A stretch of DNA of 64,000 nt. Origin: Desulfovibrio sp. JC010 (GTDB lineage Bacteria; Desulfobacterota; Desulfovibrionia; Desulfovibrionales; Desulfovibrionaceae). Where the stretch lies: positions 248,001 through 312,000 of the forward strand of contig NZ_VOIQ01000001.1 in the NCBI RefSeq assembly GCF_010470675.1, written 5' to 3'. This document shows, in pieces, positions 31,800 through 38,173 of this stretch; position 1 is the first letter of the stretch, and every line of letters starts with the position of its first letter. Position numbers and translations under genes: made by a program. The notes under the pieces were generated by a model. That model was not told the origin of the DNA, did not search any database, and was given only the letters and a program-made list of their open reading frames with translations.

Positions 31800-32318
31800 A
31801 TGAGCAAAACAAATCCGGTTCTCGATGCTATTTATGAACGCCGTTCCATCAGAAAGTTTACCGATGATCCTGTTTCACGCAAAGACCTGACCGCCATTCT
31901 GGAGGCCGGACGCTGGACACCCAGCGGCTTGAACAACCAGCCATACCGTTTTCTGGTCATCCATGACCATGACGCACGGGTTGAGCCTCTTGCGGAATGC
32001 ACCAAGTACGGACACATCGTTAAAGCGGCCAAGCTGCTGATCTGCGTCTTTCTGGATAAGCAGGCCATGTACAGTGAAATGAAGGACCATCAGGGTGCCG
32101 GAGCCTGTACCCAGAATATGATGCTGGCCGCGCATTCCCTCGGACTGGGCACGGTCTGGCTGGGCCAGATCATTAATGATCAGGCTGCAGTGCTGGAAGT
32201 GCTGGGCTTGTCCACTGAAAAATATGAACTTCAGGCTGTCATCGCGCTTGGTCACCCGGACCAGAAAGGCAGCTCAAAACGAAACGAATTATCAGAATAT
32301 ATGCTGGAGGATTTTTAA
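31800..32318 (+). CDS. Nitroreductase family protein
   Basis: A 172-residue FMN-dependent oxidoreductase: IYERRSIRKFTDDPVSR is the family start, TPSGLNNQPYRFLV binds FMN, and LGLGTVWLGQI with ALGHPDQK closes the site. It should use NAD(P)H to reduce nitro compounds, quinones or flavins in the cytoplasm. Its stop codon overlaps the start of the metallo-hydrolase gene, so they are translationally coupled. Confidence 0.92.
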   Translation: MSKTNPVLDAIYERRSIRKFTDDPVSRKDLTAILEAGRWTPSGLNNQPYRFLVIHDHDARVEPLAECTKYGHIVKAAKLLICVFLDKQAMYSEMKDHQGAGACTQNMMLAAHSLGLGTVWLGQIINDQAAVLEVLGLSTEKYELQAVIALGHPDQKGSSKRNELSEYMLEDF

Positions 32319-32944
32319 TGGAAATCAAGATTTTTCCCCTCGGTCCCCTTGAGACCAACTGTTTTGTAATTACCAACGACAACAAGGCACTGGTAATTGA
32401 TCCGGGCGGCGATCCAACCCCGGTGCTTTCCTATCTGAAAAAAACCGGCATTGAGGTGGAACGCATCCTGAACACCCACCTGCATTTCGACCATATCCTC
32501 GGCAACCGCGCGCTGGCCGATGCCACCGGAAAACAGATTTACGCCTCCAATGACGACCTCGTGCTCATGGACACTCAGGTCGGGCGCGGCGGACTGATGG
32601 GTTTTCCGGAAGTCCCCTCTTTTGAGAGCGAACACATCGGCGAGGGCGACACTGAGCTTATCGGACTGGAATGTAAAATTTACTCCACTCCCGGTCACAC
32701 TCCGGGCAGTCTGACCTTTCACTTCCCGGCCCTGAAGGCGGCCATCGTGGGTGATCTAATTTTCCGCCGCTCCATCGGCAGGACTGATTTTCCCTACGGC
32801 GATACCGAACAGCTGCTTAATTCAGTAAAAGAAAAAATCTTCACCCTGCCTGCTGAGACAGAACTCTTTGCCGGGCACGGCCCCTCCACATCCGTAGGCG
32901 ATGAAATGAACCATAATCCGTATTTCAGCGGCGTTCATATTTAG
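32318..32944 (+). CDS. MBL-fold metallo-hydrolase (glyoxalase II-like)
   Basis: A 208-residue metallo-beta-lactamase-fold hydrolase. The metal site THLHFDHILG is complete, with later ligands in TPGHTPGS, VGDLIF and the terminal GHGPSTSVGDE. This short form matches the glyoxalase II-like thioesterase group. Substrate unknown; a role in detoxifying thioesters would fit the presence of methylglyoxal synthase elsewhere in the window, but this is an inference. A strong terminator follows at 32951-32991. Confidence 0.92.
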   Translation: MEIKIFPLGPLETNCFVITNDNKALVIDPGGDPTPVLSYLKKTGIEVERILNTHLHFDHILGNRALADATGKQIYASNDDLVLMDTQVGRGGLMGFPEVPSFESEHIGEGDTELIGLECKIYSTPGHTPGSLTFHFPALKAAIVGDLIFRRSIGRTDFPYGDTEQLLNSVKEKIFTLPAETELFAGHGPSTSVGDEMNHNPYFSGVHI

Positions 32945-32950
32945 TGCAAC

Positions 32951-32991
32951 GGGCGTCAAATTCAGCTATATGAATTTGACGCCCTTTTTTT
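32951..32991 (+). terminator. Strong terminator before CU selenoprotein gene
   Basis: A perfect 14-bp stem (32951-32964 with 32971-32984) and seven T residues. It ends only 32 nt before the start codon at 33024, too close for a free-standing promoter plus leader unless they overlap. Confidence 0.9.
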
Positions 32992-33023
32992 ATGGGAACT
33001 TAAAAGCAGTCAGGGAGAAGGTA

Positions 33024-33263
33024 ATGAGCGAGCAAAAAATCGTTGATGCCCGCAACAAGTGCTGAGGCGTGGGACTGGAGGTAGGTTGGTACCTCCGTTT
33101 TGCGCGGACCGATGTAATAACCGCCCTTGTGGATAAAGGCACGGAAGCCCAGCTGCGCCATCAGCTGGAAATCCTGCCCGAATGGGATCTTGAAATATTT
33201 GAAGAGGAAGACCACGTGCGCGCGGTCTTTCAGAGCAAAATTCCACGCCCCCCCAAAAGCTGA
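33024..33263 (+). CDS. Small CU-motif selenoprotein of unknown function, UGA read as Sec14
   Basis: A 79-residue frame with one in-frame TGA at 33063-33065: MSEQKIVDARNKC-[Sec]-GVGLEVGWYLRFARTD..., ending IPRPPKS. Cys13 and Sec14 are adjacent, a redox-type pair. The rest is short, charged and without signal peptide. A perfect hairpin with a GGUUGG loop starts 18 nt after the UGA. GGGAGAAGG lies just before the ATG. The next gene, a flavodoxin-like protein, starts 20 nt later and may be the redox partner. I recognise no family; the frame stays open after the UGA with good coding character. Confidence 0.82.
33077..33096 (+). promoter_or_regulatory. Bacterial SECIS hairpin in CU protein mRNA
   Basis: A perfect 7-bp stem GGAGGUA/UACCUCC (33077-33083 with 33090-33096) holds the loop GGUUGG, which starts 18 nt after the UGA. 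Loop start and spacing are those of bacterial SECIS elements. Confidence 0.83.
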
Positions 33264-33283
33264 TAAAAAACAGTCCGATTAAA

Positions 33284-33892
33284 ATGAAACAGCTTCCGGT
33301 TTTATTCAAATGCAGCCATCACCGTAAAGGCAACAGCGACCTTGCTGCCGATCTCTTTCTGCAGGGCATCCGCAAAGCCGGTGGTGACGCGGAAATCATC
33401 ACCCTCGGCGATATGGATTTTAAGCACTGCATCGGCTGCCTGAAATGCCGTACAGCGGAAAATAACCGCTGCATCTTTGCCGATAAAGACGGGGCGCAGG
33501 AATTGTATGATAAAATCATCGAAGCCCCTTTCACTTTTTTCTCCTCTCCCATATACTTCTACCATCTGCCCTCCCGGCTGAAGACATTTATTGACCGGGG
33601 ACAATGGGCGTTTGAAGCTGCAACAGGCAATTCCGATATCTTCTCCGGGCTGGAAATTCGCCCGGCCTACGGATGCCTTGTGGCCGGAAGACCCAAAGGC
33701 GAGAAACTGTTCGAAGGAGCAGAACTTTCGCTCAAATTCTTCCTCAGGTTCTTCAAGACGGAATTACAACCGGCGATAACCTTCCGGTCCATAGACGAAC
33801 CGCAGGATTTACAAAAAGACGGCGAAAAGTGTGCGGTCCTGCTGGACGCGGGCGAACAGGCATGGAAAAGGATGGTAGAAAATGGGAGCTGA
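33284..33892 (+). CDS. Flavodoxin-family NAD(P)H-dependent oxidoreductase
   Basis: A 202-residue flavoprotein related to iron-sulfur flavoproteins: SHHRKGNSDLAADL replaces the usual phosphate loop, CIGCLKCRTAENNRC near residue 49 is the C-x2-C-x2-C-x6-C cluster motif, and SSPIYFYHLPSRLKTFIDR is the second FMN segment. It lies between the CU selenoprotein (20 nt) and the receiver gene, which overlaps its end by 11 nt. Electron transfer to an unknown substrate is likely. Confidence 0.88.
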   Translation: MKQLPVLFKCSHHRKGNSDLAADLFLQGIRKAGGDAEIITLGDMDFKHCIGCLKCRTAENNRCIFADKDGAQELYDKIIEAPFTFFSSPIYFYHLPSRLKTFIDRGQWAFEAATGNSDIFSGLEIRPAYGCLVAGRPKGEKLFEGAELSLKFFLRFFKTELQPAITFRSIDEPQDLQKDGEKCAVLLDAGEQAWKRMVENGS

Positions 33893-35086: not shown

Positions 35087-38000
35087 TTGTCCTTTAATAT
35101 CTCAGAGTGGACCCGCATTACCCACGACCAAACTCCTGTTTATATACGACCGGAATCCCCGGACTGGTTTGTTCCCACCCCTTCCGGCGATGCCCTGCTG
35201 GACAGTCTTCAGCAGACCCCCGGCAAAGAACTTTCAGTTGACGATAAACGTTTCCTCATGCGCTTACCCGATGCGGTTGAAACCACCTATCCCGGAAGAT
35301 ATGAACTGCTGCAAACCGACACCCTGCGCGAGCTATGGTTTCACATCACGGACAACTGTAATATGTCCTGCTCTCACTGCCTGTTCTCCTCCTCCCCGCA
35401 GGCCAAACGGGAATTGCCTACCGAGCGAGTGCTGGAACTGACCGATCAGGCGGAAAAACTGGGCTGTAAAATGTTTGCCCTTACCGGAGGAGAGCCACTG
35501 GTCCACAAGGGGCTGGGTGAAATCCTGACCCGCATGCTGGAGATTGAATCCAGTCACGTGGCCGTGCTGACCAACGGACTGTCCGTGGAAAAATTCTTTT
35601 CCAAACACAGTTATGATTTCAACCGTCTGCACTTGCAGATCAGCGTGGACGGCATCGGCAAGACCCACGACAAGCTGCGCGGCAAGGGCATGTTTGCGGC
35701 TCTTGAAAAATCCCTCAATTGGCTTTCAGATGCAGGTATTCCCTTCACCCTCTCCATGTGCGTGACCAGGGACAATGTGAAAGAAATGCAGGACGTGGTG
35801 GAATTCGCCGCCAGAACCGGAGCTTCCAACGTTCATTTCATGTGGTATTTCGTGCGCGGGCGTGGAGAACCCAAACAGTTCGTCAAACCGGAAAAGATAT
35901 ACCCGCACCTGCTGGAAGCATGGGAAGCAGGCGAACGCACCGGGGTGACCATCGATAACGTGGAAGCGGTCAAAAGTATGATTTTTGCCCCCTGCGGCAC
36001 TGTGCACGACGGGTCAACCGCCGGGTGGGAATCTCTGGCTGTCGGACCGGATGAGAATCTTTACCCTTCCGCCGCCACTGTGGGCATCGACAAGCTAGCC
36101 ACCTGTATTAATGATGATTTAGAACAGGCATGGAAAGAAAGCAGCGCACTTGACGAACTGCGCAAGAGCAGTGGGAAAGACCTCCCGACACCATTCAAAC
36201 TGCTGCTTGGCGGCGGTGACACCGACCACAGCTACATGCACAGGAAAAGCTTCATCGGCGATGATCCGTACAGCGAACTTTACGAAAAGCTGGCCCTTGA
36301 ACTGATTTCCCGCAAGGCTGCCCAGTCGCAGCCGCACGACACCCCGAAGCTGTTGCTGAAAATGGGCGACAGGCTGGACCGCTGCTCCGGACACGGCGCA
36401 GTGGCCCTGACCCACACCAACTGTCTGCTGGCCGTGGCCGGGAACAACAGCCTTGCGGTGGTCAAAGATTTCTACACTGAAGCGGCAGATACAGCCAAAG
36501 AAGATATCCTCAACCCGGCCTGCTACGACCCTGCGCTCATGGATCACATTCCTGAAAGATACCGCTTCCGGGGCTACGGATGCGGCTCCCCGATCATGGA
36601 TGCAGAAATTACCGAAGGTGAACATGTGATCGATCTCGGCAGCGGGCGCGGTATTGAATGTTTCATTGCTTCTAAAATGACCGGACCGGAGGGCAAAGTA
36701 ACCGGAATCGACATGCTCGATCCCATGCTGAACCATGCCCGCGAAGGGCAATCCGCAGTTGCCGCAAAGCTCGGCTACGACAACATGGATTTCCGCAAGG
36801 GCTACCTTGAGATCCTGCCCCTTGATGATGACGCAGCCGACCTGCTGCTCTCCAACTGCGTACTCAACCTCTCCACGGACAAGCGGCGCACCTTTGCTGA
36901 AATGTTCCGGGTGCTGGCCCCCGGAGGCAGGCTGACCATCTCCGATGTGGTCTGCGAGACTGAACCCGGCCCGGAGATCCGCAATGACGACACCCTGCAC
37001 GGAGAATGCATCGCCGGAGCCCAGACCCAGAAAAACCTCTGCGGCCTGCTGGAGGAAGCGGGATTCGAATCCCTGATCATGATCAAACGGTTCCCCTACC
37101 GCACTGTGGGCGGACACCAGTTCTTCTCGCTGACCTTCTCCGCCCGCAAGCCCATGGAGTCCGAAACAGTAAAGGCCGTTTACCGCGGACCGCTGAAGAC
37201 TGCCGTCACCCCCGGCGGCAATATCCTCATTCCCGGAACCGTGACCGAACTGCCCCAGCAGGAAGCCAACCTGCTCGGCGAACAGCTGTTCATTATAAAT
37301 AATGAGGGTGCGGTGGATAATATTTTCATCGGCGAATCCTGCTGCTGCCCCACCCCGGACTCCTTTGACAAGCCGGAACCGGAAAAGCAGCCCGCACACG
37401 GCCACGTTTCCCTGAAAAGCATGGAAGGATGCATGGTCTGCGGGGCACAGCTGGAATACCTGACCGAATACCGGGAAATGACCTGCGCTTTCTGCGGTGA
37501 AACCCATGAGGCCAACGGACATTGTGTGGACGGACATTTTGTCTGCGATAAATGCCACAGCGAAGACGGCATGGCCGTGTTGCCCCATCTGCTGAAAGCC
37601 AGCACAGAGACAGATTTAATTGAACTGATGCAGAAAGCCCGCAACCATCCGGCCATCCCCATGCACGGACCGGAGCATCATGCCCTTGTTCCGGGTGTAA
37701 TTACCGCTGCTTACAGAAATTGCGGCGGGGGTATTGACGACAGGGTCATAGATACGGCAATATCGCGCGGCGCGAAAGTCGCTGGAGGTTTCTGCGGATT
37801 CATGGGAGTCTGCGGAGCAGCCATCGGCGTAGGTGCGGCCATGAGTGCAATACTGGAAGCAACCCCGTTAACAGCGTGCGAACGCTCCATTGCCCAGAAA
37901 GGGACCCTCGCAGCCCTTAAATTAATTGCAGACATAGAAGCCGCCCGTTGCTGCCAGCGTGACTGCTGGCTGGCCCTGAAGGCCGCTGCTCAGGTATCCG

Positions 38001-38173
38001 AAGAGGTTCTGGGCTTGCGGTTAAAGGCGGATGCGCATATACTGTGTGATCAAATGAAAACTAATAAAGAGTGCATGGGACGAAATTGCCCGGTAATACG
38101 AAACAGTAAGGGTAATCAACCTCCCGTGATACAACTTCTGGGGTCGATAGCAGATTCTGAAAAAAAAGTTTAA
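35087..38173 (+). CDS. Radical SAM / methyltransferase / DUF5714 fusion protein
   Basis: A 1028-residue multidomain protein starting at TTG behind AAGGAG. Order: a PqqD-like segment (15-75); a radical SAM core with C91-x3-C95-x2-C98 and the GGEP motif near 144; an ArsM-like SAM methyltransferase (about 490-680) with VIDLGSGRGIECFIAS; a CCC motif near 747; a four-Cys zinc-ribbon region (780-830); and a C-terminal DUF5714-type domain with GGFCGFMGVCGAAIG. The family may modify or methylate a substrate such as a metalloid or peptide; function is unknown. All motifs are intact. It follows comF by 74 nt. Confidence 0.8.
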   Translation: MSFNISEWTRITHDQTPVYIRPESPDWFVPTPSGDALLDSLQQTPGKELSVDDKRFLMRLPDAVETTYPGRYELLQTDTLRELWFHITDNCNMSCSHCLFSSSPQAKRELPTERVLELTDQAEKLGCKMFALTGGEPLVHKGLGEILTRMLEIESSHVAVLTNGLSVEKFFSKHSYDFNRLHLQISVDGIGKTHDKLRGKGMFAALEKSLNWLSDAGIPFTLSMCVTRDNVKEMQDVVEFAARTGASNVHFMWYFVRGRGEPKQFVKPEKIYPHLLEAWEAGERTGVTIDNVEAVKSMIFAPCGTVHDGSTAGWESLAVGPDENLYPSAATVGIDKLATCINDDLEQAWKESSALDELRKSSGKDLPTPFKLLLGGGDTDHSYMHRKSFIGDDPYSELYEKLALELISRKAAQSQPHDTPKLLLKMGDRLDRCSGHGAVALTHTNCLLAVAGNNSLAVVKDFYTEAADTAKEDILNPACYDPALMDHIPERYRFRGYGCGSPIMDAEITEGEHVIDLGSGRGIECFIASKMTGPEGKVTGIDMLDPMLNHAREGQSAVAAKLGYDNMDFRKGYLEILPLDDDAADLLLSNCVLNLSTDKRRTFAEMFRVLAPGGRLTISDVVCETEPGPEIRNDDTLHGECIAGAQTQKNLCGLLEEAGFESLIMIKRFPYRTVGGHQFFSLTFSARKPMESETVKAVYRGPLKTAVTPGGNILIPGTVTELPQQEANLLGEQLFIINNEGAVDNIFIGESCCCPTPDSFDKPEPEKQPAHGHVSLKSMEGCMVCGAQLEYLTEYREMTCAFCGETHEANGHCVDGHFVCDKCHSEDGMAVLPHLLKASTETDLIELMQKARNHPAIPMHGPEHHALVPGVITAAYRNCGGGIDDRVIDTAISRGAKVAGGFCGFMGVCGAAIGVGAAMSAILEATPLTACERSIAQKGTLAALKLIADIEAARCCQRDCWLALKAAAQVSEEVLGLRLKADAHILCDQMKTNKECMGRNCPVIRNSKGNQPPVIQLLGSIADSEKKV

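Follow-up and report, generated by a model that had tools for sequence, protein, structure and literature searches.

The window, a 64,000-nt stretch of contig NZ_VOIQ01000001.1 of Desulfovibrio sp. JC010, carries a short gene (33024..33263, + strand; 79 codons plus stop) with an in-frame UGA at codon 14 (33063..33065, +), which we read as selenocysteine (Sec). Translation of 33024-33260 with TGA read as U gave a product of 79 residues including Sec (MSEQKIVDARNKCUGVGLEVGWYLRF...), in which Cys13 immediately precedes UGA-14 (motif KCUGVG), and tandem TGA-TAA ends the frame. This confirmed the frame proposed in a first-pass annotation of the DNA, which had also described a good ribosome site; a Shine-Dalgarno-like sequence, AGGGAGAAGG, is indeed present at 33012..33021 (+), with GGAG at 33014-33017, 6 nt 5′ of the ATG. 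No sigma-70-type site was listed 5′ of the gene (region 2, shuffles 1.7), and an Rfam scan of 32900-33400 returned matches only far under gathering scores.

A bSECIS-like stem-loop follows the UGA (33067..33105, +) and consists of an exact 7-bp upper stem (GGAGGUA/UACCUCC, 33077-33096), a GGUUGG loop (33084-33089) and a 9-bp lower stem. The first-pass annotation had placed a perfect 7-bp hairpin with a GGUUGG loop 18 nt after the UGA; stem and loop proved to be as described, but 18 nt is the distance to the loop, and the 7-bp stem begins 11 nt after the UGA. The 46 nt from the UGA folded at -23 kcal/mol into 9 + 7 bp with a single bulged U; 0/200 shuffles were as good (z = -4.67). With the U of the UGA numbered as 1, G23 and U24 fall inside the loop, presumably the same numbers as in the E. 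coli fdhF SECIS.

Upstream lies a conserved neighbour, a gene for a metallo-beta-lactamase-fold hydrolase (32318..32944, +), and the interval between the two genes holds a terminator-like hairpin of 14 pairs followed by T7 (32951..32984, +). The flavodoxin-like gene that had been reported 20 nt downstream begins at 33284, 20 nt past the selenoprotein stop, and extends to 33892 (+); it encodes a flavoprotein (FMN_red / Flavodoxin_2) with a Cx2Cx2Cx7C motif. In counts that enter twice any genome present in both of our collections, the flavoprotein gene was directly 3′, frequently overlapping, in 73 of the 86 loci with at least 600 downstream bases, and the hydrolase gene was upstream in 58 of the 82 loci with sufficient upstream DNA. 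The 13 loci lacking a flavoprotein neighbour include five from Solidesulfovibrio and one from Fundidesulfovibrio. A Cx2Cx2Cx4-8C motif was found in 64 of the 73 neighbouring flavoproteins, a pattern that we take to recall iron-sulfur flavoproteins. The first-pass annotation had tentatively suggested that the small protein serves the flavodoxin-like one; judged by gene order, the flavoprotein is a putative partner of the selenoprotein.

Conservation of the UGA and the selenocysteine machinery

Homologues were detected in 36 of 58 related genomes, and TGA stood at the codon-14 position in 36/36. A species-wide pattern scan (one genome per species, 84,980 species) that admitted TGA, TGC or TGT returned 55 loci, with TGA in 55/55 and a weakest profile match of 1.3e-18. 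Because known members partly shaped this pattern, it would miss distant forms, and some of the scan genomes are the same as among the 58 relatives. The 91 loci pooled comprise 83 distinct sequences. Asp8 and Cys13 are invariant, and the motif of the Sec family is CUGhG. Sec or Cys at codon 14 in relatives had been named beforehand as the feature to look for, and we found Sec at all of these loci and Cys in a sister family described below. A frameshift after the UGA in relatives had been named as grounds for dismissal, and at every one of the 36 + 55 loci read the frame stays open beyond the UGA. A search with Cys codons in place of the UGA returned no relative, because of that replacement.

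Two departures from this pattern were noted. One family copy, L212 (G667), has an additional in-frame TAA and is either a decayed gene or a sequence error. When 12 TGA-bearing rows were checked, Cys was found ahead of the UGA in 11 and Gly in one, L210 (G612), which retains the UGA while its preceding Cys is replaced.

As to distribution, the genome name was Desulfovibrionales-type for 48 of the 55 scan loci, and the other 7 were named only Proteobacteria, Deltaproteobacteria or delta proteobacterium. A search at the level of the order matched 170 of 348 genomes at E <= 0.01, a count that includes weak and Cys-type matches; among the matches listed, every one carries a TGA. In a sample of the phylum, 6 of 395 genomes matched the Sec family, all within the family of Desulfovibrio sp. 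JC010, and a plasmid search for the gene gave nothing at E <= 0.01.

The genome of Desulfovibrio sp. JC010 encodes selA and selB on one contig, with selB 1.6 kb beyond selA, as well as a tRNA-Sec (82.5 bits) and a selD with one in-frame TGA; the first-pass annotation would have been contradicted by a genome devoid of Sec genes, and all four are there. Among the 58 relatives, selA was present in 36/36 gene holders, and the gene occurred in 0/6 genomes with no selA match; of the 52 selA-positive relatives, 16 do not have the selenoprotein gene. A strong tRNA-Sec is nevertheless present in three of the six relatives with no selA match, whose selA may have fallen into assembly gaps. In the 348-genome set, 280 had a selA match, and some gene holders did not (G502, G503, G705, G707, G716), mostly fragmented assemblies.

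RNA-level selection on the hairpin

We compared the hairpins with the bSECIS rules printed in the Fig. 2 legend of PMC13188914. These rules were satisfied by the window gene and by 73 of 91 members, in line with the bSECIS check of the mRNA that had been suggested, and by 68 of the 83 distinct members versus 11% of 1,660 synonymous recodings; the printed energy rule was failed by 18/91 members, 9 of these by far. The 46-nt fold beat synonymous recodings in 78 of the 83 members, with a mean z of -1.6. The codons used within the hairpin were also compared with those used for the same residues elsewhere in the family (percentages in brackets): GTA 33/55 (8%), GGT 43/67 (11%), CTC 74/83 (11%), CGT 60/82 (9%) and GAG 73/73 (53%). 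The hairpin codons thus depart strongly from those used elsewhere in the gene, and we conclude that RNA-level selection acts on this hairpin.

Covariation was modest. Paired cells amounted to 75.6% versus 73.5%, and the score was 0.141 versus 0.119, each value being reached by 2/500 shuffles; pairs changed on both sides numbered 5 versus 3.8 (109/500 shuffles), and further pair types fell below the shuffles. Thus two of the five measures were reached by 2/500 shuffles, and the remaining ones were unremarkable. One lineage (L028, L044, L074, L079 and others) seems to use a shifted stem with the loop AGUU, and five of its members (L030, L041, L085, L108 and L113) had poor hairpin scores.

Predicted fold and a cysteine-bearing sister family

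An AlphaFold2 model was built from an alignment of 54 sequences, namely the window protein and those of 53 of the 55 scan loci (L089 and L109, which have no start in range, were left out), and gave a pLDDT of 90.6, a pTM of 0.80 and the order E-H-E-H-E-E. Foldseek against the PDB returned nothing at E <= 1e-3, and by E-value TDP2 and SpoVS entries led, not TusA. Among the best 50 matches the highest TM score, 0.73 by query length with an rmsd of 1.8, belonged to the YeeE-YeeD chain 8k1r_A, of which the aligned part is presumably YeeD. Next came 8j4c_A (0.69) and TusA 3lvj_C (0.67/0.68); the SirA-like 3hz7 had 0.62/0.65. TusA proteins of the same order show D-x-x-G-L-x-C-P-x-P in most rows; by this pattern Sec14 lies at D+6 like the TusA Cys, just ahead of helix 1.

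The window protein would thus resemble TusA/SirA (PF01206), together with YeeD/TsuB, in predicted fold order, in length and in TM score (0.62-0.73), and it shares an Asp-x-Arg/x strand end, a reactive residue at D+6 and then a helix. It differs in that the Sec family has CUGhG and lacks the CPxP motif, has an additional Cys before the reactive residue, and uses Sec for Cys. PF01206 matched none of the 54 Sec-family members, hhalign to TusA gave 8.5% for the Sec family and 42% for the Cys branch, and a sequence search of solved structures gave two matches at E 0.84-0.86, which we regard as chance. The sequence evidence for kinship with TusA is weak; on the strength of the model, the selenoprotein probably has a TusA-like fold.

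In 36 genomes selected because their matches were weak or double, the Sec profile picked up stop-free frames as well, 18 of which were read (L184, L191-L207). These form a sister family (D-h-R-x-x-x-C-G-L/M-h-P) that invariably carries Cys at the Sec position (18/18 members) and lacks the UGA; in 8/18 another Cys stands ahead of this one. Its homology with the Sec family is clear (profile comparison 99.0%, E 3.3e-18), and both families occur in Desulfovibrio sp. JC010, where the Cys profile matched the Cys copy at 5e-28 and the window selenoprotein gene at 2.8e-6. That Cys copy (L222; G000:C1:76149-76409, outside the window) lies directly downstream of mnmE, as do the sister genes at 4 of the 18 loci; no other recurrent neighbour was seen in the 4 of 6 longer stretches that were read. 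In a sample of the phylum, 4 of 297 genomes matched the Cys profile, all in one family, and a Pfam and NCBIfam scan of 3 of the 18 members gave no match.

A separate case is L182 (G467), a syntenic orthologue flanked, as are its Sec relatives, by the hydrolase gene on the upstream side and the flavoprotein gene on the downstream side, in which CPC replaces CU, the UGA is absent and there is no matching hairpin. Its genome (85% complete) is outside the 280 with a selA match, and L182 looks like a natural Sec loss.

Novelty, decoding and candidate functions

The first-pass annotation had proposed a new small selenoprotein family, and our library searches agree with this. At E <= 1 the selenoprotein matched no family in Pfam or NCBIfam 20.0, and 54 members gave scattered matches only, the best at 0.019 and 0.027. 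No TusA or SirA entry occurs in the 119-family selenoprotein table of a 2026 review (PMC13188914, as far as its accessible text goes), and the family is not named in the accessible parts of PMC1914089, PMC1794560 and PMC9312934; this literature is open-licence and without supplements, and mention elsewhere is possible. The tabled selenoproteins with a CU motif, namely HgcA, SaoL, SaoC, CopZ-like form 2, MbdU and KCU-star, share the adjacent Cys-Sec with the window protein, but none of those with NCBIfam models matches it (PMC13188914, same text). A SirA/TusA-type domain has been tied to selenium before, in the SirA-like protein of the third selenium trait. The portion of PMC2432076 available describes that protein as encoded next to selD, unclear in function and DsrE-like in its C-terminal part, but, unlike the window protein, not as Sec-containing. 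According to the accessible portion of PMC12013277, deep-Sep reported 0 new selenoproteins in Desulfomicrobium orale and Salidesulfovibrio onnuriiensis; the genomes that we presume to be D. orale and S. onnuriiensis would carry the gene, intact in the former and with an extra TAA in the latter. The conclusion that this is a genuine selenoprotein family, unlisted in the libraries and literature examined, is supported. It adds such a family in a large part of an order to which model sulfate reducers belong, and shows that a short selenoprotein can go unnoticed by current methods when close Cys homologues are few.

That the window gene encodes a selenoprotein is, in our judgement, nearly certain, because the UGA is conserved, the hairpin is under RNA-level selection, the full set of Sec genes is present and a Cys sister family exists. 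Were the UGA an ordinary stop, a 13-codon leader would be followed by a separate 64-aa gene from GTG 33069; an open frame does exist from that codon, and in 55 of the 83 distinct members an ATG, GTG or TTG occurs in frame within 12 codons past the UGA, but the other 28 have no such restart codon, and a Shine-Dalgarno-like 4-mer precedes the restart in 10/55 versus 59/80 for the upstream start. Moreover, the codons before the UGA, among them those for the invariant Asp8 and Cys13, change as in a protein (28, 32 and 70 mismatches at positions 1, 2 and 3), the stop is always TGA, and the Cys sister family reads straight through. On the restart-codon, Shine-Dalgarno and pre-UGA codon evidence we rejected a restart at GTG 33069, which appears extremely unlikely.

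For the selenoprotein, we propose that SelB and tRNA-Sec, directed by the adjoining downstream hairpin, would insert Sec at UGA-14 to give a predicted beta-alpha-beta-alpha-beta-beta protein in which Sec immediately precedes helix 1, at the site of the TusA CPxP Cys, with Cys13 alongside. The Cys-Sec pair may cycle between selenol/thiol and selenenylsulfide, or it may bear sulfur or selenium as a per-selenide. Taken as a whole, a selenoprotein decoded via the hairpin, with a TusA-order fold and Cys-Sec redox or chalcogen chemistry, is very likely, leaving aside any exchange with the flavoprotein. As a further step, which we advance tentatively, the protein could be a small redox or chalcogen relay, passing electrons or cargo to and from the flavoprotein next door. 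Similarly tentative is the wider proposal that this may be the first selenoprotein family with a TusA-like fold, with Sec for the chalcogen-carrying Cys plus a second Cys, forming a new selenium-based sulfur or electron relay with the flavoprotein in sulfate reducers. Since a single genome holds the fold in both a Sec and a Cys version, what selenium buys becomes testable.

Other functions for the Cys-Sec pair must be weighed against this relay. The pair might itself reduce a small substrate (peroxide, disulfide or polysulfide) with the flavoprotein donating electrons, which would make the protein an enzyme and not a carrier; the adjoining flavoprotein in 73/86 loci fits this, as does the view, in the accessible text of PMC13188914, that a redox role is likely for most selenoproteins still uncharacterised, but 13/86 loci have no flavoprotein neighbour and the predicted fold resembles carrier proteins, and we think an enzyme rather unlikely. 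A role of the pair in binding or detoxifying a soft metal or metalloid (mercury, arsenic) is improbable: several CU-motif selenoproteins bear metal-linked names (HgcA, SaoL and MbdU, in the same text), and 1.8 kb downstream there is a gene with ArsM- and MbdU-like parts, yet that gene was matched close to the selenoprotein at only 2 of 90 loci (L070, L115), many loci being too short to show it. Delivery of selenium to tRNA or to SelD, like that proposed for SirA-like proteins in selenium metabolism, seems similarly improbable, although elsewhere SirA-like genes occur linked to selD (PMC2432076, in the portion available) and the Cys sister gene follows mnmE in Desulfovibrio sp. JC010 and at some other loci; selD sits on a different contig, SelU scored above cut-off in only 1 of 58 relatives (G026), itself without the selenoprotein gene, and Desulfovibrio sp. 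JC010 has no SelU match. Delivery to SelU in particular was judged unlikely on the same distribution.

The downstream gene with ArsM- and MbdU-like parts is a 1028-aa frame free of internal stops (35087-38173, +; TTG start as called) that also has a radical SAM part; the MbdU model describes a double selenoprotein.
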